Below the pieces are notes generated by a model, which was not told the DNA's origin, searched no databases, and saw nothing but the letters and a program-made list of their open reading frames with translations. The position numbers and the translations under genes are program-made. A DNA stretch of 52,762 nucleotides, from contig SHLP01000011.1 in NCBI GenBank assembly GCA_004283055.1, positions 1 to 52,762 of the forward strand, written 5' to 3'. This stretch comes from Deltaproteobacteria bacterium (GTDB lineage Bacteria > Myxococcota_A > Polyangia > Polyangiales > Houyiibacteriaceae). This document shows positions 1,419-45,821 of the stretch, in pieces; the first letter of the stretch is position 1, and the number at the start of each line of letters is the position of its first letter.

Positions 1419-2405
1419 TCAGCTCGCGTATGCGACGCGCTTCACCGCGTCAATCACACGCTCCTCGGTGGGAAGAACCTTGTCCTCTAGATTCAATGCA
1501 TAGGGCATGGGCACGTCGAGCCCGGTCACCCGTTCGAGCGGGGCGTCGAGGTAGTCGAAGGCTTCGCGCTGCAGCCGATCGACGATCTCGGCGCCCGGCC
1601 CTCCGTAGGGCCAGTGCTCATGCACCACGACGCAGCGATTGGTTTTCTTGACGCTCTCGACCATCAGGCCAGTGTCCAGAGGCCGCAAGGTCCGCGGGTC
1701 GACGACCTCGCAGTCGATGCCTTCGGCAGAGAGCTTCTCCGCCGCGGCCAAGACCGTGTAGTAGGGGCGACCCCAGGTCACGATCGTGCAGTCCTCTCCC
1801 GGCCTGACCAAGCGGCTCTCCCCAATCGGAATCAGCTCCTCCACCCCTTCGTCCGGCACCTCGCCCTTGACCCCATAAAGCGTTTCGCCTTCGAGGAAGA
1901 TGACCGGATTGTTGCTGCGAATGGCGCTCTTGAGGAGGCCCTTCGCATCACGCGGCGTGCTCGGTTGAATGACGTACAGGCCCGGGATGTTCGTATAGAA
2001 GGGCGCACAGCTGTGACTGTGCTGCGCCGCGACCTGCTTGGCAGCTCCGTTGGGCCCACGAAACACGATCGGCACCTGGATGGCGCCCGCGCTCATCTGG
2101 TGCACTTTGGCCGCGTTGCTGATGATTTGATCGAAGGCAACGAAAGAGAAGTTCCAGGTCATGAACTCGATGATCGGTCGGAGACCTGCCATCGCAGCGC
2201 CGATTCCTACGCCTGCAAAGCCTGCTTCCGCGATGGGTGTGTCGACGACGCGCCGCTCGCCAAACTCGTCGAGAAGACCTTCGGAGACCTTGTAGGCGCC
2301 CTGGTAGTGACCCACCTCTTCGCCCATCAAGAACACGCGCTCATCGCGCTCCATTTCCTCGAGCATCGCCTCCCGAAGAGCTTCTCGATAGCGGAGCTGC
2401 CTCAT
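1419..2405 (-). CDS. pdhB: Pyruvate dehydrogenase E1 component, beta subunit
   Basis: Beta subunit of the alpha2beta2 thiamine-diphosphate E1 that decarboxylates pyruvate and acetylates the E2 lipoyl group. The 328 residues are the usual length. An N-terminal transketolase-type pyrimidine-binding half contains FLMGEEVGHYQGAYKVSEGL and the conserved TPIAEAGFAGVGIGAA and EFMTWNFSFVAFDQI stretches. The C-terminal transketolase domain starts near residue 200 (TIVTWGRPYYTVLAAAEKL). The ATG overlaps the pdhA stop in an ATGA junction (2402-2405), implying translational coupling, and pdhC follows after 3 nt. The paired alpha/beta form differs from the single-chain AceE E1 of enterics. Confidence 0.94.
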   Translation of the reverse strand: MRQLRYREALREAMLEEMERDERVFLMGEEVGHYQGAYKVSEGLLDEFGERRVVDTPIAEAGFAGVGIGAAMAGLRPIIEFMTWNFSFVAFDQIISNAAKVHQMSAGAIQVPIVFRGPNGAAKQVAAQHSHSCAPFYTNIPGLYVIQPSTPRDAKGLLKSAIRSNNPVIFLEGETLYGVKGEVPDEGVEELIPIGESRLVRPGEDCTIVTWGRPYYTVLAAAEKLSAEGIDCEVVDPRTLRPLDTGLMVESVKKTNRCVVVHEHWPYGGPGAEIVDRLQREAFDYLDAPLERVTGLDVPMPYALNLEDKVLPTEERVIDAVKRVAYAS

Positions 2406-35394: not shown

Positions 35395-38000
35395 CGGGAA
35401 AGAGCAAGACCCTAATCCGCCTGCTCACGGCGCTCTCGGCGACGCTGGCCTTGCTGCTTTGGATGGCCAATCGCGAGCCCTTCGCGTTTGGGCCGCTCTG
35501 GGGTGCGCTGATCGCAACCGCGTCCTCCGTCGCCTGGGTGGCCTGGCTCGTTCCTGCGACACCGGGGGAGGTCGTCCCGTGGCGCGAGACGCCCCTCGGC
35601 CGAGAGCCGGGGGAGCTTTTCTCGCCGGTGCTTTCGATCGCGCTCGCGCTGGCGGCGCTGGTGCTGGGCGCGGCGATCGGAGGATACGAACATCTGCCGA
35701 TCGCCATCGTCGCTGCCCTTCTTTTCCTGGTGCCTGCGAGCCTTCGGCGTCCCGGTCTCTTCGTGATGGTCGCGGTCTGCGCGCTCTACCTCCCGCTGCT
35801 GGGCACGACCGGTCTTTGGGACCCCTGGGAGACGCACTACGGAGAAGTCGCGCGCGAGATCCTCGCCCGCAACGACTGGATTAGCCTCTGGTGGGCGCAG
35901 GACAAGTGGTTCTGGTCGAAACCGGTCCTCCTCTTCTGGATGGAAGCCCTGAGCATGGGCTTTGTGGGGGTGGATTTCATGCCGGACGCCAATCCGGCGA
36001 ACCCGGAGTGGGCGCTCCGTTTGCCCGCCGTCTCGATGAGCTTGGCCGCACTGGCGGCGATCTACGCGACGGTTCGGCGAAGCTTCGGTCCGCGCGCCGG
36101 CATCCTCGCCGCCCTGACAACAGCGGCCATGCCGCAGTTTTTCTTCATTTCGCATCAAGCGATCACCGACCTGCCCCTAGTCGCCGCCATCACGATTGCA
36201 GCCTGCTGCATGCTCGTCGCCATCGACGAGGATTCCCCCCGCGAAGCGAAAGCGCTCCAAATCGGTCCTTGGAAGGTGTCCCTCCAGCACCTGCTGTTAT
36301 TCGGGGTCTTCGTACTCGTACTTCCGCAGGCGACGTATCTGATTTCCCGGAACATCTCCTGGTTGGACGGACACGGGCTCGTCGCCCACGCCGACCGATT
36401 CCTCTACGGTTCGGCCGGCAACGCGGACGTGCCTGGCAACCCGATCCCACGCGACCAGGCTCCAGCTTTTCATGGGCTTTTGGCCCAACCGTTCGTGCAA
36501 GGCGCCCTTTGGCTGGCGCTGCTCGCGGTGCTGGCAGCCATCCTTCGCAAAGAACGGCGGGTCCGCCCGCTGTTGATGTATGCCTTCTACCTCTTCACCG
36601 CGATCGCCTTCATGGCCAAGGGCCTTCTCGGGATCGCCGTTCCAGGAGCGATCGCGCTGTTCTACCTGGCCGCCTCTCGGCGTTGGTCACTGCTCGGCAG
36701 CGGCGACCTTCGCATCGCGAGCGGCGCGCTGATCGTGACCACCGTGAGCATGCCCTGGTACCTGGCGATGTACGTTCGGCACGGCGCGGCCTTCACCAAT
36801 CGGCTCTTGATCCACGACCACATCAATCGACTTGCAAGCGGCGTGCACGGCGACACGGGCACGATCGCGTACTTCCTCGGCCAGCTGGGCTACGCGACCT
36901 TCCCCTGGATCGCTTGGATCCCGCCGGCGCTGATCGTGGGCCTGTGGATGCGCTCGCAGTCAGAGCGCGATGCACGGAGCGAAACCCTGCTCTTCGTGGC
37001 CATGTGGCTTCTTTCTTCGTTCGTCCTTTTCAGTGCGATGGTCACCAAGTTTCACCACTACATTCTGCCTACGCTCGTGCCCGCAGGGATTCTGGTCGGG
37101 ATCGCGGGAGCACAGTGCTGGGGCCCGAGCAGGCCAAGGGCGACCCTCCTCGCGGCGGTCGCCGCGTTTTGCCTGATTCTCGGCCTTGCGTGGCTCGTGG
37201 GAGATCCTCGGGGCGTCATTCCCGCCGACGCGATGCACCCGGAGGATTGGGTGCTCCAGCAGGCGACGCCCCTACGAGCCGCTGCTGTGCTCGCGCTCGG
37301 CGCCGCGCTCGCTGCTTTCGCGCGCTCGCAGATCGCGCAGGCCGAAACCGAGTTGCTCCCTTCACGCTGGGGCACCGCCCTCGGCGTCGGCTTCGTGCTC
37401 GGGACCTGTCTCCTTGCGTTCGTCGGACGTGACCTGAGCTGGTCGACCTCGGCGAGGCCGCAGGGGCACGAGCGACTCGTTCATTTGTTCGTCTACAATT
37501 ACGATCGGCTGTGGCCGGAGCACCTCGACTATCGCGCCATCCTCACCGGCTTCGCCCTCGCCGCCGGCGTGACGAGCGCCGCGTCGGCCTTTCGCGCGTG
37601 GCGTCCGGTGGCAACCCGCGCTTTTTTCACGGTGTCGGTCTTGTTCTGCGCCTGGGGATTGAACGTCTACATGGTCGACCTCTCCGACCACTGGGGGATT
37701 CGCAACCTCGCCCAGCGCTACTACGAGCTTCGGGAGGGCCCCGACGAGCCGCTTCTTGCGTGGCAGATGAACTGGAAGGGAGAAAACTTCTACACCGGAA
37801 ACCGCGTGTACGTCTTCGCTGAGACCGACAACAAGCGGATTCGCGAATGGCTCGAAGAGAACGAGGGGCGGACCGCCTATGTCGTCCTCGAGCACAAGCG
37901 GCTCGGCAGGTTTCGGAAGTTGGTTAGCGACAGCGAGGTGCAGGAGCTGACGACCAAGAGGGACTCGAACAAGTTTCTCCTGATCGAGCTTGAGATCTGA
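35391..38000 (+). CDS. Family 39 glycosyltransferase (ArnT/PMT-like), integral membrane
   Basis: GT-C type membrane glycosyltransferase of 869 residues with many hydrophobic helices. It probably transfers a sugar from a polyprenyl-phosphate donor to lipid or protein on the periplasmic side. The first large loop has GLWDPWETHYGEVAREILARNDWI, with the acidic catalytic region expected in ArnT/PMT enzymes, then WFWSKPVLLFWMEALS. The segment FYLFTAIAFMAKGLLGIAVPGAIALFYL and the re-entrant periplasmic NRLLIHDHINRLASGVHGDTG fit the family. The C-terminal soluble domain carries NFYTGNRVYVFAETDNKRIREWL. It is larger than ArnT (about 550 residues) because of two N-terminal helices and the C-terminal region. 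Acceptor unknown. Confidence 0.87.
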   Translation: MTGKSKTLIRLLTALSATLALLLWMANREPFAFGPLWGALIATASSVAWVAWLVPATPGEVVPWRETPLGREPGELFSPVLSIALALAALVLGAAIGGYEHLPIAIVAALLFLVPASLRRPGLFVMVAVCALYLPLLGTTGLWDPWETHYGEVAREILARNDWISLWWAQDKWFWSKPVLLFWMEALSMGFVGVDFMPDANPANPEWALRLPAVSMSLAALAAIYATVRRSFGPRAGILAALTTAAMPQFFFISHQAITDLPLVAAITIAACCMLVAIDEDSPREAKALQIGPWKVSLQHLLLFGVFVLVLPQATYLISRNISWLDGHGLVAHADRFLYGSAGNADVPGNPIPRDQAPAFHGLLAQPFVQGALWLALLAVLAAILRKERRVRPLLMYAFYLFTAIAFMAKGLLGIAVPGAIALFYLAASRRWSLLGSGDLRIASGALIVTTVSMPWYLAMYVRHGAAFTNRLLIHDHINRLASGVHGDTGTIAYFLGQLGYATFPWIAWIPPALIVGLWMRSQSERDARSETLLFVAMWLLSSFVLFSAMVTKFHHYILPTLVPAGILVGIAGAQCWGPSRPRATLLAAVAAFCLILGLAWLVGDPRGVIPADAMHPEDWVLQQATPLRAAAVLALGAALAAFARSQIAQAETELLPSRWGTALGVGFVLGTCLLAFVGRDLSWSTSARPQGHERLVHLFVYNYDRLWPEHLDYRAILTGFALAAGVTSAASAFRAWRPVATRAFFTVSVLFCAWGLNVYMVDLSDHWGIRNLAQRYYELREGPDEPLLAWQMNWKGENFYTGNRVYVFAETDNKRIREWLEENEGRTAYVVLEHKRLGRFRKLVSDSEVQELTTKRDSNKFLLIELEI

Positions 38001-38036
38001 TCCCGAAAAGGGATAGAATTCGGGTTCTTGTAGGTT

Positions 38037-38081
38037 TCGGTCCTACTGAACACCAAAAACTGGACCGATTTTCAGTACTGA
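38037..38081. repeat. Interleaved inverted repeats upstream of the small winged-helix gene
   Basis: Two 7-bp inverted repeats alternate: TCGGTCC (38037-38043), TACTGAA (38044-38050), GGACCGA (38062-38068), TTCAGTA (38071-38077). The last overlaps a perfect 10-bp palindrome TCAGTACTGA (38072-38081), and TACTGA occurs twice directly. As RNA the two hairpins are mutually exclusive; as DNA it looks like an operator. It ends 17 bp before the ATG at 38099. Confidence 0.6.
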
Positions 38082-38098
38082 GCGATCCTCTGGTGCCC

Positions 38099-38359
38099 AT
38101 GGCAAATCACGACGAAAAACTAGGCTGGCGTCTGCTCGAGGCGCTGTACGAGCTCGGCCGCGCCGACACCAAGGCGGACGCGGATGTCCTGGCGACCTGG
38201 CTCGGTGTTGCAAAACCCCACGTCCAGGAGCTCATGCGCCGGCTAGACGCTCAGGGCCTGGTCGACGCGGAGCGCTGCCGGCTCTCGATGCAGGGTTTGG
38301 TGCTCGCGGTCTCGATGCACGGTGCGCAGAAGCTGTCACGCCAGTCGCGTGCCGCTTGA
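38099..38359 (+). CDS. Small winged-helix-like DNA-binding protein
   Basis: An 86-residue protein starting at ATG 38099 (a GTG two codons earlier is possible). The segment DADVLATWLGVAKPHVQELMRRLDAQGLVDAERCRLSMQGLVLAVSM reads as helix-turn-helix, recognition helix and wing, as in MarR/ArsR or DtxR-type winged helices. No ligand domain is present. The interleaved inverted repeats just upstream could be its own operator. The stop codon (38357-38359) lies inside the first unit of the TTGAC array that leads into the tRNA promoter, so the gene abuts the tRNA regulatory region. Confidence 0.65.
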   Translation: MANHDEKLGWRLLEALYELGRADTKADADVLATWLGVAKPHVQELMRRLDAQGLVDAERCRLSMQGLVLAVSMHGAQKLSRQSRAA

Positions 38360-38391
38360 CCTGCCTTGACCTGCCTTGACCTGCCTTGACA
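38355..38391 (+). repeat. Four TTGAC elements at exact 10-bp spacing
   Basis: CTTGACCTGC is repeated so that TTGAC occurs at 38356, 38366, 38376 and 38386. The last is followed by A, giving the perfect -35 hexamer TTGACA. The 10-bp period is about one helical turn, so all copies face the same side of the DNA. The stop codon of the small winged-helix gene lies in the first unit. Confidence 0.9.
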
Positions 38392-38414
38392 GGCCGGGGC
38401 CCAACCACTATTCC
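38386..38414 (+). promoter_or_regulatory. Promoter of tRNA-Leu
   Basis: TTGACA (38386-38391) is followed after exactly 17 bp by TATTCC (38409-38414), a moderate -10 element. Initiation is expected near 38421, about six bases before the mature tRNA 5' end. The discriminator after the -10 (GCGTGC) is GC-rich, the hallmark of promoters under negative stringent control by ppGpp. The upstream TTGAC array feeds directly into this -35. Confidence 0.65.
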
Positions 38415-38426
38415 GCGTGCTCTTCA

Positions 38427-38510
38427 GCGGAAGTGGCGGAATTGGCAGACGCGCATGATTCAGGTTCATGTGTCCGCAAGGACGTGGAGGTTCGAGTCCT
38501 CTCTTCCGCA
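38427..38510 (+). tRNA. tRNA-Leu (anticodon CAG)
   Basis: A complete class II tRNA of 84 nt. The acceptor stem GCGGAAG (38427-38433) pairs with CTTCCGC (38503-38509), with discriminator A510. The anticodon stem CATGA/TCATG encloses loop TTCAGGT, with anticodon CAG at 38461-38463, reading CUG. A long variable arm, GTCC-GCAA-GGAC, marks it as leucine-type. The T-arm is GGAGG-TTCGAGT-CCTCT with one G-U pair. The CCA end is not encoded (CCG follows). Its last 18 nt also form the start of the downstream 165-bp repeat unit. Confidence 0.97.
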
Positions 38511-38832
38511 CCGCGTCCTTCGTAATCGCGACTCGCGTATCTACGAGGACTCGACCTACGGTGTACTCGGCGCCCTTCGGGCGCCTGCGTACTGCGGCTG
38601 GAATTCGGCAGCTCCGTGAACTTCGTCCACTCCGCTTTGCCGTATTCCAGTCACAACCGAGTCCTCTCTTCCGCACCGCGTCCTTCGTAATCGCGACTCG
38701 CGTATCTACGAGGACTCGACCTACGGTGTACTCGGCGCCCTTCGGGCGCCTGCGTACTGCGGCTGGAATTCGGCAGCTCCGTGAACTTCGTCCACTCCGC
38801 TTTGCCGTATTCCAGTCACAACCGAGTCCTCT
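38493..38832 (+). repeat. 165-bp tandem repeat starting with the tRNA-Leu 3' end (2 copies plus 10 nt)
   Basis: Two identical 165-bp units lie at 38493-38657 and 38658-38822, followed by a truncated third start CGAGTCCTCT (38823-38832). Each unit begins with CGAGTCCTCTCTTCCGCA, the last 18 nt of the tRNA. Within each unit, GAGGACTCG (38545-38553 in copy 1) is the exact complement of CGAGTCCTC at the unit start. A GGCGCCC-TTC-GGGCGCC hairpin is flanked by GTAC on both sides. CTGGAATTCGGCA and TGCCGTATTCCAG can pair over 12 of 13 positions. The period is a multiple of three, so a frame with a duplicated 55-residue Arg-rich segment stays open across both units. I see no ribosome binding site for it. 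Confidence 0.97.
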
Positions 38833-38862
38833 TAAGCCGCGCGTGGCGGGGTGCTGGGGCTG

Positions 38863-38894
38863 CCAGCGTTTCGGCGTTGGGTCTGCATTTTTTT
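38863..38894 (+). terminator. Possible weak intrinsic terminator after the tRNA repeat
   Basis: CCAGCG and CGTTGG (38863-38868 and 38875-38880) can form a 6-bp stem with one G-U pair around a 6-nt loop. Seven T residues follow (38888-38894), but seven bases separate stem and T-run, which is longer than usual. It is the only T-run between the repeat and the pilin operon. It could end the tRNA-repeat transcript, possibly with help from Rho. Confidence 0.3.
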
Positions 38895-38981
38895 CATGGG
38901 GGGTGCAGGTTGTTTATAGCTGGACGGGGTTGGAGCGGGCTGGTTTTGTTTGATTTCAGCTACTTAGAGGAGCTTCAACTT

Positions 38982-38997
38982 CGGTACGGGAGTTGCA
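38982..38997 (+). promoter_or_regulatory. Candidate sigma-54 promoter of the minor pilin operon
   Basis: CGGTACGGGAGTTGCA matches the sigma-54 pattern TGGCACG-N4-TTGCW with exact spacing of the -24 GG (38983-38984) and -12 GC (38995-38996). Ten of twelve informative positions match. The predicted start site, about 12 nt after the GC, falls at about 39008, almost on the GTG at 39010. The first mRNA would therefore be nearly leaderless. Pilin genes in related bacteria are often sigma-54 dependent, which supports the call, but it remains a motif match. Confidence 0.5.
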
Positions 38998-39009
38998 TCT
39001 ACAGCGGAT

Positions 39010-39651
39010 GTGGTTGGAAATCGTAGAAAACGGCGCGAGGGGCTGACGCTGGTGGAGCTCATGGTCGTCCTGGCGGTCATGGGGGTGCTGGTGAGCGCTG
39101 CCCTGCCGAACATCGGCGACGGGTTCGCCGATCGGCGCGTCGCGATGGCGGCGCGGGATGTGGCATCCCTTTTTCAGCGCGCCCGGTATATGTCGATGGC
39201 CTACGGCCGCGCGCACCAGGTGCTCTACGAAAACGACGGGGGCTTCGGCCTCGCCAACGGCAACCCGTACGCGTTCGAAACCCTGCGCGGCACCAGCGGT
39301 GGCTGCGCGCTGACTAGCTTCGAGAACGCGGGAGGAACGGTGCTCGCCGACATGGACTGCGGCAACAACTGGCGCTGCGTCGATAACGTCTACCCCGACA
39401 CCTACGATTCCGATCCCGGCGATACCGATCTCATTCGGGTCGACGGGTACAACAACGCCAGGTTCTGCTACGAGGCGGGTTCCAACAACCAGGTCTTCAT
39501 CGACACGGTGCTCTTCTCGAACTGGCAGGCGAACCCCGTTCAGTCCGGCTTCGGGTTTCTGGTGTATCGGCAGGTCGACGGGAGCGTGGTCGGCGTCACC
39601 CGAAAAGTTCTCGTTCCGTCCGGGACCGGAACACCACGGATACTGCGATGA
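39010..39651 (+). CDS. Type IV pilus minor pilin, FimT/FimU/GspH-like
   Basis: Prepilin of 213 residues. A short basic leader (VGNRRKRREG) precedes the cleavage site G|LTLVELMVVLAVMGVLVSAALP, with Glu5 conserved in the mature protein; the prepilin peptidase would cut and methylate here. GFT is replaced by GLT. The following domain (ADRRVAMAARDVASLFQRARYMSMAYGRAHQV) has the FimT/GspH pattern, and Cys residues are spread through the C-terminal domain. GTG 39010 is the only usable start. First of six genes that all overlap by 1-4 bases. Confidence 0.85.
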   Translation: MVGNRRKRREGLTLVELMVVLAVMGVLVSAALPNIGDGFADRRVAMAARDVASLFQRARYMSMAYGRAHQVLYENDGGFGLANGNPYAFETLRGTSGGCALTSFENAGGTVLADMDCGNNWRCVDNVYPDTYDSDPGDTDLIRVDGYNNARFCYEAGSNNQVFIDTVLFSNWQANPVQSGFGFLVYRQVDGSVVGVTRKVLVPSGTGTPRILR

Positions 39652-40277
39652 ACCAGCTCGACAAGAACAAACACGGTTTCACTCTCGTCGAGGTCATGAT
39701 CGCCATCGGCATCATGACCGTTGGCTCGCTTGGCATTCTGGCGATGCACCAGGGCGTGAATCAGGCGAACCGGGCTGCACTCGAAATGAACACGGCCGTG
39801 GCGATCACCGAACGCTGGGTCGAGCGCGTCGAGCGGGACGCGCTTTCCTGGACGGAGCAGGGCCTCAACAGCAGCTCGTTGGCCGCGACGTACCACCTGT
39901 CGGGCCTCGCCGGCACGCCCTCGGCCACCCAATGGTTCAAACCTACGCCGCCAGTAGGAGAGTCGTACGATTTTGATTACTTCGGCAACGATCTCGTCCC
40001 CGCCAACCCGAATCCTCAGAAGTACTGCACCAACCTGCGCCTGAGCTGGCTCCGGCAGGGAAGCTCGGCTCGGGTCGACATCCGAACCTTTTGGTACCGT
40101 GAGGGATATATGCCTGGTGGCGCGACACACCCGGACTGGGTGAGCAGCGGTGCGTTTCGAGGCGCCGATTGCGAAGCCGCGACGGCAGACGGCTGGGGTC
40201 TCAACACGGCGACGCTCCCGCCGAACATCGATGTGGTGTTCGCGTCGACCGTCGTGACCTGGCTGAGGAGGGAATGA
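39648..40277 (+). CDS. pilV: Type IV pilus minor pilin, PilV-like
   Basis: Minor pilin of 209 residues with the prepilin motif HG|FTLVEVMIAIGIMTVGSLGILAMHQGVNQANRAALEMN. The LAMHQG-type turn and following polar helix are typical of PilV. The rest is a small beta domain with a Cys pair (KYCTNLRL, ADCEAA). Start overlaps the previous stop by ATGA. It is expected to join FimU, PilW and PilX at the pilus tip, primed by the PilY1-like protein encoded downstream. Confidence 0.85.
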   Translation: MNQLDKNKHGFTLVEVMIAIGIMTVGSLGILAMHQGVNQANRAALEMNTAVAITERWVERVERDALSWTEQGLNSSSLAATYHLSGLAGTPSATQWFKPTPPVGESYDFDYFGNDLVPANPNPQKYCTNLRLSWLRQGSSARVDIRTFWYREGYMPGGATHPDWVSSGAFRGADCEAATADGWGLNTATLPPNIDVVFASTVVTWLRRE

Positions 40278-41605
40278 ACGTGAAAAAGAGCGGATTCACT
40301 CTCATCGAGCTCATGGTCGCCATGGTCGTCGGCCTGACCGCGATCACTTCGGTGTACAGCCTCGGGGCGGCGATGAGCGAGCAGTTCTACCAGGAGCAGC
40401 GCACGGCGACGTCGCAAGGCTCATCGCGCGCCGCGATCATGGAGCTTCGCCGCGATATTTCGCGAGCCGGCCTCTTTGGCTCACCCAACGCCCAGCGCGA
40501 ACCGCGCTGCGAGCCCGGTAATCCGCAGCTCCCCGAGCTCGGCGGCGGCACCCTCACCATGGGCGCCTTTCAGTTCTACAGAGACACGGACCAAGCCCTG
40601 CTCGACCCCGGTGACCTCAACGGCGCCCGCGTCCGCGCGGACCGCCTTCGCATTTTGACCAGCCTCTACCTCACCGACCAACTCCTCGTCGACTCGGTGA
40701 GCCCCGAGGGTACGACCGTCATTTTGCAAACCAGCAACCAGGCGTACCGCCGCACCTTTGCCTGGGGTCAGGCGGCAGGCCCATTCACCGGCTCCGCGCC
40801 GAACTACCTGGACGGCGATCTCGGTTGGGACGCGGCCTGGGGCGGCGAGGCCGCGAGCTGGAAAGGCATCAGTCAAAAGGGCGCGCGCGCGTTCCAGACC
40901 GGCTCGGTCCTGCACATCGAGTCGCCCGGGGGCTTTCACTTCTTTCGCACCGTCTTTGACAAGGCGGACAACACCCAGAACCAAGTGCGCCTGTCGGTTG
41001 CTCCAAAGCTGCCGGTCGCCACGGCCTGTCTCCCAGGAGCCGGGGGGGGCGCGACCGTCGCTCCGCTTCAATGGGTCGAGTATGCGCTGGTCGACCCGTT
41101 CGATGCAGCCTCGGTCGGCGCCAACTTCATGGATTTCGGGGAGCTGTTCTTTTTCGATCTCGAAGGCACGAACCCCTTGATCACGTCGGACTTCGAGAAC
41201 GCCGGCGCCGAGGCGCTTCGAGAGAAACGGAACATCGTGCTGGTGCGACGCATCTTGAATCCGGCGGACGGCACCGTGAGAGCCAACACGACGCAGGTGC
41301 TCGCCGAGTTCGTCAGCAACTTCGAGGTCTCTTTCCGGGTCGACCGCAGGTCTGGGACCAATCAGCCGCCCCTCATCGAAACCGAGACGGACGGCAGCGT
41401 GATAAACGCCAACCCCGAGCAAGTCCGGTCCGTTCTCATCAGCTTGGGAATCCGCAGTCCGCTCGAAGACCCTTCGATTCCCTACTCCGGAGTGAACGCT
41501 GAGAACACCCGCTTCGAGGTGGACGAAAACGAGAGGGGCTCTGCCCGTGTGCGCCACATCCGCATCGAGGTTCCGGTGATGAGCGTGGCCAGGAGGAACC
41601 TCTGA
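40274..41605 (+). CDS. pilW: Type IV pilus minor pilin, PilW-like
   Basis: From ATG 40274 (ATGA overlap with pilV) the product is 443 residues, longer than typical PilW. The prepilin motif is SG|FTLIELMVAMVVGLTAITSVYSLGAAMSEQF, and residues after it (QEQRTATSQGSSRAAIMELRRDISRAGLFG) follow the PilW pattern of a long helix ending in an RDISRAG-like motif. The large C-terminal domain is beta-rich and carries KRNIVLVRRILNPADG and FRVDRRSGTNQ. It is the PilW member of the tip complex. Confidence 0.85.
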   Translation: MNVKKSGFTLIELMVAMVVGLTAITSVYSLGAAMSEQFYQEQRTATSQGSSRAAIMELRRDISRAGLFGSPNAQREPRCEPGNPQLPELGGGTLTMGAFQFYRDTDQALLDPGDLNGARVRADRLRILTSLYLTDQLLVDSVSPEGTTVILQTSNQAYRRTFAWGQAAGPFTGSAPNYLDGDLGWDAAWGGEAASWKGISQKGARAFQTGSVLHIESPGGFHFFRTVFDKADNTQNQVRLSVAPKLPVATACLPGAGGGATVAPLQWVEYALVDPFDAASVGANFMDFGELFFFDLEGTNPLITSDFENAGAEALREKRNIVLVRRILNPADGTVRANTTQVLAEFVSNFEVSFRVDRRSGTNQPPLIETETDGSVINANPEQVRSVLISLGIRSPLEDPSIPYSGVNAENTRFEVDENERGSARVRHIRIEVPVMSVARRNL

Positions 41606-42291
41606 TGAAGCATCCAGACAAGCAGGAAGGCGCCGTGCTTTTCGTCGTCTTGATGATCGTGATGGTCGGCACCGCGAGCGCGCTCTTTTCAGCCACGACG
41701 GTGTCGCACGAGGTGCGGGGCACCGGCTTTGCGCGCCAGCAGATGCAGACCCGATACGCAGCGCGCGCCGCCCTCATCGGCGCGATGGAGTGGTTCGACA
41801 TTTTCGGTCCCGAAGCCGTCCGCGACATCGTGCAAACCCGCGGCGCCACCGACGCCAAGCTCTTCCCCTGCACGTCGACCACCCCCATCACTTGTTACCC
41901 GGAGCCGCCGCTAGCGGGCAGCCGCCGAGCCTACCGGCTTTACGAGGAGCACTTCGACGCCCTGATCGAGCCCGACGGCAGCGGTAACTTCCAGAACCAA
42001 CCCGTCGACGCCGATGCCGTCTTCGGAGGCGGCTCCGCGTACAGCCCGGCTTTCGTGGTCGACCTCTACGACGAGCACATCGTCAACAAGCTTCCGCCCG
42101 GTGCCGCGGCCCAGGGGGGCACGAAATTCAAATACATGCGCACGACCATGACGGCTCGCGGTCGTGCGCAGGTAGGCGACGGGACCGTCGATGCCCCCGG
42201 AGGCGCCGAGGATTTGGGACGGCAATGGAACGAGACGGGCGCGGATATGCGCGCGTACATCATCAGCGGGCCATTCATTTCGGGGTCATGA
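41605..42291 (+). CDS. pilX: Type IV pilus minor pilin, PilX-like
   Basis: Protein of 228 residues whose N-terminus KQEGAVLFVVLMIVMVGTASALF lacks the FTLxE motif but has the small-hydrophobic GAxLFVxLxIxxV pattern of PilX-type pilins. The segment VSHEVRGTGFARQQMQTRYAARAALIGAMEWF is typical of PilX, with repeated Ala/Arg in the helix. The start shares one base with the PilW stop (TGATG), and the next gene overlaps its end by 4 bases. Confidence 0.75.
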   Translation: MKHPDKQEGAVLFVVLMIVMVGTASALFSATTVSHEVRGTGFARQQMQTRYAARAALIGAMEWFDIFGPEAVRDIVQTRGATDAKLFPCTSTTPITCYPEPPLAGSRRAYRLYEEHFDALIEPDGSGNFQNQPVDADAVFGGGSAYSPAFVVDLYDEHIVNKLPPGAAAQGGTKFKYMRTTMTARGRAQVGDGTVDAPGGAEDLGRQWNETGADMRAYIISGPFISGS

Positions 42292-45200
42292 TGAGATTTT
42301 GGCTACACATCACTTTGCTTGGCTTATCCGTAGCTTTTCTCGGTCCGAGCGCGAAGGTCATGGCACAGAGCCCGGACATTCGAAACATTAGGCCGCACGT
42401 CATGCTCCTGGTCGACACCTCCGGCTCCATGGAGCGCAAGCCAAACTGCATTTGCTCGACGCCGGCATGCCTGGAGTGCCTGCCCATCTGCGGCGCGGGC
42501 ACCTTCGAACAAAACCGATGGTCGGTCGTCGCACAGGCGCTCACCGGTGAGTTCACTCCGTACGAGTGCAACTCCGACGTGCGCATCGGCGGCATCTACA
42601 CCGGTGAGTACGACGAAGGCTACTTCCTTCCCCACATTCAGCTGCCTCAGGAAATCCCCAGCTACAGCGGCACACAGAGCGCGAACGGCGTGCTCGACAC
42701 CTACATCGAGCGCATCAAGTTCGGCCTGATGACCTTCGACTCGATCGGCACCCTGAACGACCGACCGCCGCTGGTGAGCCAGGCGGACTTCCTGCTCGTA
42801 CCGTTCCCTGCCGAATCCCTCGGCACCAAGGGCATGTACTCCTACGGCGACGACCGGCCGTTTTCGTTCCCAGGCGCGCTGACGACCTTCATGCTGAACA
42901 GCGGCGCACGCTCTGCAGCGGCGCCCGAAGGCGGTCTCGTAACCGTCGGCGCGGACAGCACGGCATCGATGGCCAACACGAACGCCGCGATTCAGGCGAC
43001 GGTGCTCGGTGACAGCGGGCTGAGCAAGAATCCTCTACGACCGTTCGGCGCCACCCCGACGGCCGGGCTCGTGACCGACCTTCAGTACTTCCTTCAGACC
43101 GACCCGGACATCGTGCAAAAAACGGCCGACCCAGGCCCGGGCGATCCGTTCTACGGCTGCCGTCCGCGAAGCGCCGTCCTGATCACCGACGGTTTCCCGA
43201 ACGGCGACATGCGCGGCAGCCCGGTCAACTGCCAGGACCTGGGCAATCCCGTCGGCGCAACCGGCTGTCCGTACGAAGAGGTCGCCGATACGGTTTCGGC
43301 GATGATCTCATCCGACGATTTGAACAAGTTCTACGTGATTGGCTTCGCGCTCGACGGCGACGCGGCGAAGGTCGCGGCGGTCACTGCGCTTTTGGACGAC
43401 ATCGCCGCGGTGGGCGATACGACCGAAGCCTTCCTGGTCGCCGATCGGGCCGAGCTCGTCTCCGCGCTGAGCTTCATTTTCAACGAGCAGAACGCTGGCG
43501 CGACGAGCAGAACGGCCCCGGTGCTCACCGGCGCCTCGCCGGGCCTTCTCGAGTCGGAGTTCATCTCCGGTTTCAACGCCTCTTTGGATGCAGACGACCC
43601 CTGGGACGGAGTCCTGGAGCGCAGGCGGTTTCTGTGCGTCGGCGGCTTGCCCGAACCGCAGGACGTCGAAGACAAAGACCGCTTCCACGAGGTCTTGAAC
43701 GCACAGAGCTCGGCACCGTCGGACGTCGACCCTTGGGGAGGGTCCGGCTCGAAGGTCAACTTCACCGGGGGCTTTTCGCGAAATCTCTGGACGGTTCTGC
43801 CCGACGATCCCGCCGACATCAACTCGCACCTCACCGGCGGCGGAGCGGACAAGCTCACGACCGCTAGCTTGGACCTACCCGATGTGGGCCTTGCGATCAT
43901 TGACCAACCCGTCGGCGAATTCAGCAGGGCGATCGATCCGGAATACCTCTTAGGCGTGGGCAGCACCGACACCGCGCTTCGAGACACGGTGGTCGAATGG
44001 GTCCACGGCGAATCGGGGAGCGGACGAGAAGATGAACGCCTCGGCGACATCTACCATTCGACGCCCGCCATCGTGGGACCGCTGGTCGACGACATCGATG
44101 ACAGCTCCTTCAACGACTGGCGTTTGGGCCTGGCGCATCAGCTGAGCCCTGATCCGATCGAAAGCGTGCCGAACTGGCAGCTGAGCGAGCGCCCGCGCGT
44201 GATCTACGCATCGTCGAACGATGGGGTCATCCATGCATTTCTCGCCGATGACTACCCGGCTGGGGTTTACACCTCCGGCAACAACCTCGAGGAGTTCGCC
44301 TGTGCGAGCAACAAGGATGCGGGCACCGAGCTCTGGGGGTTCATCCCGCCGATGTTCCTCGACGATCTCGACGACATGCTCGCAGGCGGCAGCAAGCAAT
44401 GGTACGGCGACGGCAGCATTCAGGTCCGCAACCTCTACGACGTCCGCTCGTTCGCCCCGGGTCAAGGAGGTGCAACCAACGTCTGGCGCACGGTCTTGTT
44501 CCTAAGCTTCCGCAACGGCGGCAACGGCATGGTGGCGCTCGACGTCACCAACCCTTGCAAGCCCGAGTTCCTCTGGCAGTTTACCCATCCCAACCTCGGC
44601 AACACGTACGGCCAGCCGACCGCAGCGCAGATCTTCGTCGAAGGAGGGGACGATGGAAGCGGCGCACCGGCTTTCCTGGCGAGGCAATCCCGCGGCGTGA
44701 TCCTGCTGCCGGGCGGACAGGGCGTAGAGAACAGCAGCTCGGTGGCGATTCCCGCCGGCCCCGCGCTCCCTCAAGACATGAATGCCGCCAACGGCGCCTC
44801 GATTACCCCGAGGGCGAATCGGCGCCAGTGGCGAGACGAGTCGACGGCTCCGGCGGAGGTCAGGCACGGCCGGATGCTCTATTTCATCGACCTCATCACG
44901 GGCACGCTGATCGAGGAGCTCGACGAGAGCACCTTCCCTGCTCCGCTCACCGGCGCGGTTTCCGTCTACCGAGGCGATACCGGCACCGTGGCGAGCGCCG
45001 CCTACACGGTGGACGCCGATGGGGTGCTCTGGCGGGTGGATCTGGCATCGGTCGAGCCGGCCGACTGGGAGGCCGAGGCGCTACACGACCTCTACTACGA
45101 TGAGGCCTCGGACGTCGCCGAGCCGACGTTCTACCCGCTTGCGCTCACGAGCGACCCATCGGGCCGTGTCGTGATCCTGACAGGGACCGGCAACATCGAC

Positions 45201-45821
45201 GTACTCGATGATTCCACAGCCATCAACAAGGTGGTTTCGGTCACCGAGCAGGTCACCTTCGACGCCTTTGGCAACGTCGACTCGCTCGAGGGCCGGCTCA
45301 ACTGGGAAATCGAGCTCGACCCGGGCGAGCAGATGACCGGACCCATCGAGCTGTTTGCCGGTCAGGTGTTCTTTGGCACGTTCAAGTCCGCGAACGGGAC
45401 CGCAATCGACGCTTGTCCGTTCGGCGGGAGCCGCATTTTCGGACTCGAGTACTTGGACGACGCGACCAGTCCCGGAACCCCGGTTCCGCTGCTCGTCGAC
45501 AGCCTGTCGAACCCGGCCTTCGTGCTCGATCAGAGCGACCTCCCCCAGCTCGAGAACGCCTTGCTCGTCGGTCTGCAGGTCGCCCAGGCGCCTGTCTGCG
45601 TCACCACGCAGGACGTTCCCATCGTCGACCCCTTCGACGGCGCCTCGGGTACACTCGCCATGCCGGTCGCGACGAGCGGTCGCGCATTCAAGCTGATGGG
45701 CCATCTCAGCGGCTCGGCTGCCGTTCCGGTGAACCAGCTGGCGATCAACATCCTCGAGGAGGCTATCCGGGCGCCCGAAGCCTTCACGGTGGTCTCGGGG
45801 ATGGCCGAAACGCTGGAATGA
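42288..45821 (+). CDS. pilY1: PilY1-like pilus tip adhesin/assembly protein
   Basis: Large secreted protein of 1177 residues from ATG 42288 (ATGA overlap with the gene before). A signal peptide, LLGLSVAFLGPSAKVMAQS, is followed at once by a VWA-like domain with MIDAS motif LLVDTSGSME (Asp43) and VLITDGFPNGD. The second half has a PilY1/PilC-type beta-propeller signature: PRVIYASSNDGVIHAFLADDYPAG, GTELWGFIPPMFLDDLDDM, MVALDVTNPCKPEFLWQFTH and YTVDADGVLWRVDLA. Six Cys lie close together near the start (residues 56-74), after the MIDAS motif. PilY1 binds minor pilins and primes or tips the pilus, and its VWA part can be mechanosensitive. Confidence 0.88.
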   Translation: MMRFWLHITLLGLSVAFLGPSAKVMAQSPDIRNIRPHVMLLVDTSGSMERKPNCICSTPACLECLPICGAGTFEQNRWSVVAQALTGEFTPYECNSDVRIGGIYTGEYDEGYFLPHIQLPQEIPSYSGTQSANGVLDTYIERIKFGLMTFDSIGTLNDRPPLVSQADFLLVPFPAESLGTKGMYSYGDDRPFSFPGALTTFMLNSGARSAAAPEGGLVTVGADSTASMANTNAAIQATVLGDSGLSKNPLRPFGATPTAGLVTDLQYFLQTDPDIVQKTADPGPGDPFYGCRPRSAVLITDGFPNGDMRGSPVNCQDLGNPVGATGCPYEEVADTVSAMISSDDLNKFYVIGFALDGDAAKVAAVTALLDDIAAVGDTTEAFLVADRAELVSALSFIFNEQNAGATSRTAPVLTGASPGLLESEFISGFNASLDADDPWDGVLERRRFLCVGGLPEPQDVEDKDRFHEVLNAQSSAPSDVDPWGGSGSKVNFTGGFSRNLWTVLPDDPADINSHLTGGGADKLTTASLDLPDVGLAIIDQPVGEFSRAIDPEYLLGVGSTDTALRDTVVEWVHGESGSGREDERLGDIYHSTPAIVGPLVDDIDDSSFNDWRLGLAHQLSPDPIESVPNWQLSERPRVIYASSNDGVIHAFLADDYPAGVYTSGNNLEEFACASNKDAGTELWGFIPPMFLDDLDDMLAGGSKQWYGDGSIQVRNLYDVRSFAPGQGGATNVWRTVLFLSFRNGGNGMVALDVTNPCKPEFLWQFTHPNLGNTYGQPTAAQIFVEGGDDGSGAPAFLARQSRGVILLPGGQGVENSSSVAIPAGPALPQDMNAANGASITPRANRRQWRDESTAPAEVRHGRMLYFIDLITGTLIEELDESTFPAPLTGAVSVYRGDTGTVASAAYTVDADGVLWRVDLASVEPADWEAEALHDLYYDEASDVAEPTFYPLALTSDPSGRVVILTGTGNIDVLDDSTAINKVVSVTEQVTFDAFGNVDSLEGRLNWEIELDPGEQMTGPIELFAGQVFFGTFKSANGTAIDACPFGGSRIFGLEYLDDATSPGTPVPLLVDSLSNPAFVLDQSDLPQLENALLVGLQVAQAPVCVTTQDVPIVDPFDGASGTLAMPVATSGRAFKLMGHLSGSAAVPVNQLAINILEEAIRAPEAFTVVSGMAETLE

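Follow-up and report, generated by a model that had tools for sequence, protein, structure and literature searches.

A myxobacterial tRNA-Leu(CAG) gene is followed by tandem repeats of a family of short hairpin-forming DNA elements located at the T-loop of tRNA and tmRNA genes

The repeats that follow the tRNA-Leu(CAG) gene in the window (the whole 52,762-nucleotide stretch of contig SHLP01000011.1 analyzed here) are members of a family of short DNA elements, not named before, that form hairpins and occupy one set position in the T-loops of tRNA and tmRNA genes in a myxobacterial lineage. Family members either interrupt the tRNA or tmRNA gene or leave a spare copy of its tail, as in the window. 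On balance, and with some reserve, we favor an explanation in which the repeat unit is a non-coding element inserted at the T-loop, equipped with a spare tRNA tail and amplified in tandem by recombination between tails. The data are nearly all metagenome assemblies; public records of the element's core that carry names are of the same kind and are mostly labelled Myxococcales or Polyangiaceae.

The tRNA-Leu(CAG) gene lies on the forward strand, as do all features of the array, at 38427–38512 according to ARAGORN and at 38427–38510 according to Rfam (RF00005). It is intact, with C56 at base 38493, and is the sole Leu(CAG) gene found in its genome. TRF reports a period of 165, 2.1 copies and 100% identity over 38493–38832 (score 680), corresponding to two identical 165-bp units and a 10-bp stub of a third. 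Unit 1 begins within the tRNA, where the tail CGAGTCCTCTCTTCCGCA (its last 18 nt, C56–A73) occupies 38493–38510; the second copy of this tail (38658–38675) likewise starts at C56 and opens unit 2, and the third tail start is cut to CGAGTCCTCT (38823–38832). The 147 bp between tails contain no protein family, and a search at E<=0.001 found no further copies of the unit in the window's own genome. This is the arrangement described in the initial annotation, and TRF, ARAGORN and Rfam bear it out. The stub is followed by TTAAGCCGCGCG, a sequence common to the single-unit loci of genomes G002 and G005. Just 5′ of the tRNA, a 10-bp tandem repeat (CTTGACCTGC, 3.6 copies, 38355–38390) repeats a TTGAC motif that resembles a −35 box. 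The neighbors at 38093–45821 include a small winged-helix protein upstream and type IV pilus minor pilin genes and PilY1 downstream; apparently the same pilin gene lies downstream in G001 and G013.

Each unit contains a core of ~125 nt composed of a closing stem (P1) and two hairpins (A and B). In unit 1 a spacer (38511–38544), a stretch that at other loci sometimes holds a hairpin or terminator-like sequence, precedes the 5′ strand of P1 (GAGGACTCG, 38545–38553), which matches the cognate T-stem and is complementary to that half of tail copy 2 which belongs to the T-arm. Hairpin A (GTACTCGGCGCC..GGCGCCTGCGTAC) extends from 38563 to 38592 and hairpin B (CTGGAAT..AGCTCC..ATTCCAG) from 38598 to 38650; no other part of the family is as widespread as hairpin B. 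The beginning of tail copy 2 supplies the 3′ strand of P1, so that the same copy closes unit 1 and starts unit 2. Unit 2 repeats this layout with its spacer at 38676–38709, hairpin A at 38728–38757 and hairpin B at 38763–38815, and the truncated third tail start closes its P1; the match of covariance model R1 to the core of unit 2 spans 38699–38832 (138 bits).

The fold is conserved with covariation. In an alignment of 20 cores (148 columns), compensatory double changes are present in 17 of 33 core pairs, double-change cells number 53 against 14.4 ± 2.8 in shuffles, and 93.8% of cells pair; all 500 shuffles fall short on each of the five measures used. With E-values that are rough for this model and for the model R2 discussed below, R1 matches 19 of 19 genomes of the genus (E<=0.1) and 27 of 184 genomes of the order (E<=1e-6). 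The two features that define the family in R1 and R2, a covarying two-hairpin core and a right boundary at T-loop C56, are both found in the window units. A tree of the cores is poorly resolved, with labels by tRNA locus somewhat clustered. A protein-coding role was rejected: there is no Pfam match and no conserved protein, and the open 55-residue Arg-rich segment pointed out in the initial annotation is not conserved; the unit spacing of 162–168 bp among relatives breaks the frame.

A search of 97 related genomes finds diverged units in the same genus, and the tRNA-Leu(CAG) locus is common to many of its species. Copy number at this locus varies, with one unit in G002 and G005 and two in the window, in G011 (mutually differing units, each sharing about 89% identity with the window unit) and in G018 (near-identical units). 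Because of the two-unit arrays in G011 and G018, an assembly artefact, against which the initial annotation had cautioned, appears an unlikely source of the window repeats. Judging from the exact 165-bp tandem duplication and the homologous, sometimes two-unit arrays of relatives, chance can be excluded as their origin.

The initial annotation had also raised the question of whether copies sit behind other tRNAs. In related species they do: cores are located behind tRNA-Leu(CAG), Leu(AAG), Leu(TAA), Asp, Lys(CTT) and Asn, nearly always accompanied by a copy of the cognate tail. A census of the 44 tRNA genes of G018 identifies cognate tail plus core at Leu-CAG, Leu-AAG, Asp and Lys, and a census of 39 tRNA genes in the window genome, with two genes at contig ends left out, identifies them at Leu-CAG only. 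In 14 of 15 units, representing seven kinds of tRNA or tmRNA tail, the tail copy begins at T-loop position 55 or 56, mostly at C56. The Leu(TAA) locus of G003 reads CGAATCC in the tRNA and CGAGTCC in the tail copy, and the core therefore seems to bring its own end. Another genus of the same taxonomic family, g9 (G026, G032), has hairpin B with tail copies behind its tmRNA gene; in one such locus (L138:1039-2000, G026:C11) the tmRNA gene precedes a tandem array of four units, all of which end in the tmRNA tail CGATTCCCCGCGCCTCCACC.

Cores are not confined to intact tRNA genes. Orphan tails of tRNA-Met, Asn, Lys (with masked sequence upstream) and Leu(TAA) also bear them, and were probably split off by islands or decay. 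Other genera carry tens of dispersed copies, and those in G021, G029, G033 and G053 lie away from tRNAs. In G053 (L256, L258-L267, L273-L275), dispersed MITE-like repeats of ~300 bp contain the core and have inverted ends near GTAACCGTTCAGGGG, which look IS66-like by eye. A tail copy by itself is not diagnostic, because a 19/19-nt copy of the tRNA-Gln(CTG) tail of G018 (L209, G018:C45) lies ~100 bp downstream of its gene without a hairpin core; this copy is absent in G000. At L306:1350-1600 (G082:C152), tRNA-Ser(GGA) is followed by a terminator-like hairpin, an antisense-like tail copy and a hairpin related to hairpin B.

At tRNA-Leu(AAG), the filled site of G018 reads tail–165 bp–tail–CCCAATCATTTCGG (longer flank CCCAATCATTTCGGCAGC) and the empty site of G000 and G014 reads tail–CCCAATCATTTCGG (longer flank CCCAATCATTTCGGCAGC), with one base different in G014. 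A further pair consists of a filled site in G016 (tail–164 bp–tail–CCCTTTAGTT) and an empty site in G001 (tail–CTCTTTAGTT). These pairs are precise gains or deletions; empty sites may also come from deletion between tails.

The second form of the family lies within the tRNA gene itself. In two chromosomal tRNA arrays (L278:1-8500, G063:C11; L279:1600-9000, G041:C469), inserts of 67–69 nt interrupt the T-loops of Lys, Arg, Ile-TAT, Met, Val, Leu-TAA, Leu-CAA, Ser and Tyr genes, and removing them in silico from nine of the interrupted genes yields tRNAs that ARAGORN recognizes. A 120-nt tRNA gene match in one array (L279:7559-7678, reverse strand) probably contains an insert of a different kind, close to the variable loop. 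Model R2, made solely from the array inserts, matches the elements of the genus weakly (best 20.8 bits, E 0.001). Across a phylum sample of 379 genomes, in which G063 is not listed as a match, T-loop inserts matched by R2 are confined to G041, which has eight of them, including two on a second contig; its match in G082 is a single hairpin behind, not inside, a tRNA-Ser gene. A viral contig (L296, IMGVR_UViG_3300048591_001682) with 26 tRNAs, a portal gene and a Ro60-like gene carries inserts of 89–90 nt in the T-loops of tRNA-Asp and tRNA-Val (region 780–2400). They lie at T55/C56, as located by the first restoring cut found, and the spliced tRNAs are recognized by ARAGORN. Scores of 66.5 bits (E 1.7e-21) and 50.8 bits against R1, and of 43.0 and 44.5 bits against R2, make these two inserts the link that joins the tail-copy and in-T-loop forms.

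Starting from the anatomy and covariation of the core, the C56 boundary, the cognate tails, the precise filled and empty sites and the link to inserts within T-loops, we propose that each unit represents a short piece of non-coding DNA inserted at the T-loop junction (positions 54–56) of a tRNA or tmRNA gene. Folding of the core would take place in single-stranded DNA and probably involve the strand opposite the tRNA, and we infer that it is DNA rather than RNA that acts. Upstream of its core, the window insertion would carry a copy of the tail C56–A73 and a short spacer. Thanks to the spare tail the tRNA-Leu(CAG) gene, which is present once, would remain whole, and the displaced tail would end up behind the core. 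Repeated tails would then permit tandem gain, loss and homogenization through slippage or unequal exchange, which may have given the two identical units of the window. The spare tail could stem from integration and later loss of an island or from insertion of a circle already holding a tail; either would do. T-arms are classic targets of tyrosine integrases, genes for integrases often lie next to tRNA 3′ ends in these genomes, and insertion was presumably performed in trans by a site-specific recombinase.

Several observations count against this T-loop insertion model, namely that no recombinase was found beside any unit, the dispersed copies away from tRNAs and the weak R2 matches in the genus. 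Long vertical persistence with compensatory change also hints at a host function and counts against the model, in which persistence would be selfish rather than host-serving. Known mobility systems were considered as well. REP/RAYT mobilization was rejected, as RAYTs (Y1 transposases) are absent from the copy-rich genomes G016, G018, G029 and G033; a single weak R1 match (12.2 bits) lies near a RAYT. An integron attC site or cassette was likewise rejected, with an integron integrase above the cut-off in 0 of 16 genomes. Phage and plasmid collections gave ordinary tRNA-Leu similarity or no match, and a search of open-access papers dealing with rtT, with tail repeats or with inserts in the T-loops of bacterial tRNA arrays yielded no description of such elements.

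The pattern of mismatches within stems bears on which strand folds and on whether an RNA is made. Transition mismatches on the tRNA strand of 24 tRNA-type cores comprise 5 G.U and 18 C.A, of which inner hairpin A and hairpin B together contribute 0 and 15, respectively. In tRNAs from two of the same genomes the acceptor stems show 23 G.U and 2 C.A (Fisher p 9e-7 for core versus acceptor stem, with cells shared by descent); counted as distinct events, the core has 3 G.U and 11 C.A (two-sided p about 0.06). A C.A mismatch on the tRNA strand is a G.T mismatch on the opposite strand, and the C.A excess is the reverse of a true RNA pattern. This strand test is suggestive, not proof, and mutation bias could contribute to the asymmetry. 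The initial annotation had proposed an independent rtT-like system, in which read-through of the precursor and processing at the repeated tRNA 3′ ends would release a structured sense small RNA. The architecture is indeed that described for tyrT, the window unit folds strongly as RNA (−71.3 kcal/mol, z −6.2), the structure is kept with covariation and no terminator was found between tRNA and core in the window. However, a terminator-like hairpin and T-run precede the core at tRNA-Asp, at tRNA-Met and at the G026 tail, and because of the Asp and Met hairpins and the wobble asymmetry a sense small RNA like rtT is not favored. The dispersed copies and the lack of any match to a known Rfam RNA point the same way, and we regard this proposal as improbable. 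What holds from the initial interpretation is a tail-repeat system of variable copy number, unrelated in sequence to rtT and also present behind other tRNAs in relatives; the sense small RNA is not supported, and the link to T-loop insertion was not foreseen. An antisense RNA, with the bottom strand transcribed, folded and acting on the tRNA or its neighbors, would accommodate both the wobble asymmetry and the complementarity of that strand to the tRNA tail, but a simple scan of 38000–39100 found no promoter-like site and the flanks of dispersed copies are unrelated, making such an RNA very improbable.

Two further explanations concern the T-loop position itself. The 67–90-nt intervening sequences in bacterial and phage tRNA T-loops, in arrays near Ro60-like and RtcB genes, might form a new class that is excised from pre-tRNA, with the window a derived form supplying a spare tail; we entertain this tentatively. 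As an account of the window repeats, RNA-level introns removed from pre-tRNAs, perhaps with ligation by RtcB, would make them a derivative or relic lying in a duplicated piece of the tRNA 3′ end. The single insertion point in nine genes of two arrays with intact exons, the presence of an insert in tRNA-Ile(TAT) of both arrays (exon identity 96%), the retention of the T-stem around the insert in two pre-tRNA folds, RtcB on both array contigs and Ro60-like genes in or beside the G063 array and on the viral contig are all consistent with splicing. We nevertheless consider it rather unlikely for the window: stem mismatches of the genus elements do not favor sense-strand G.U, neither the window genome nor the viral contig has an RtcB match, the viral contig has a reversed copy (2158–2291, reverse strand) within another tRNA region and the insert-bearing tRNA-Met is just 74% identical to its intact Met(CAT) counterpart in the other array. 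Alternatively, the repeats could be scars of tRNA-targeting genomic islands, with the tail copies as attL and attR and the core as a shared attP arm left after island loss. A tail running from T-loop to 3′ end is a known island signature and attP measures about 250 bp (PMC4383910). Tyrosine integrases abutting tRNA 3′ ends are common in these genomes, and cores sit on orphan tRNA-Met, Asn and Leu tails. The apparent 3′ end of a tyrosine integrase gene lies, by eye, directly behind tRNA-Leu(AAG) in G014 (L071) and shares its first bases with G000 (L065) and G018 (L033); this site is likely an island hotspot. Yet the same core occurs with different tRNA types and tmRNA at a strict position, also within T-loops that have no tail copy, and units stay at about 165 bp in many species with no kb-size island ending in a core seen, so that island scars are an unlikely explanation.

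The T-loop insertion model can be set against systems with which the family shares some features. In E. coli rtT, tandem units that start with the tRNA tail lie directly behind the tRNA. The window shares units that begin with the 3′ tail of the upstream tRNA, but has no sequence match and no Rfam RtT match at gathering score or even at E<=10, in line with the initial annotation, which called the sequence unrelated; here several tRNAs and tmRNA are involved, at the T-loop insertion point, and the structure is apparently without selection on the sense strand. REP/RAYT elements and MITEs are short, non-coding, palindromic and dispersed, a likeness that extends to the multi-copy hairpin B of some genera and to the G053 core inside a MITE-like repeat, whereas the fixed T-loop address and cognate tails are particular to this family. 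Integron attC sites share with the family a covarying folded site, a suspected bottom-strand preference, a tandem array and a recombination point at the hairpin foot, but not gene cassettes. Genomic islands in tRNA and tmRNA genes have been catalogued by Islander, which rejected candidates under 2 kb (PMC4383910), and phage Ms6 has its attB in a T-loop (PMC1762012). The window units resemble such islands in their T-loop target, gene-restoring tail copy, displaced tail at the far end and tandem arrays, but measure 165 bp with neither genes nor an integrase between the tails. Group I introns interrupt the tmRNA T-loop (PMC11915505) and are, like the inserts, structured elements within the T-loop of a tRNA-like gene; the inserts, at 67–90 nt, are too short for group I catalysis, lie in tRNA genes and have no Rfam intron match. 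The rtT RNA itself is that of E. coli tyrT (Bosl and Kersten 1991, as cited in PMC4986893).

If the T-loop insertion model is true, gene-less elements of ~150 bp exploit the T-loops of tRNA and tmRNA genes as phages do, with a spare tail keeping the gene intact, while their relatives interrupt tRNA genes outright. The insert-bearing tRNAs of the arrays would then either undergo splicing by a pathway that has not been described in bacteria or be dead. The model would also suggest how tRNA-tail tandem repeats such as rtT may have arisen.
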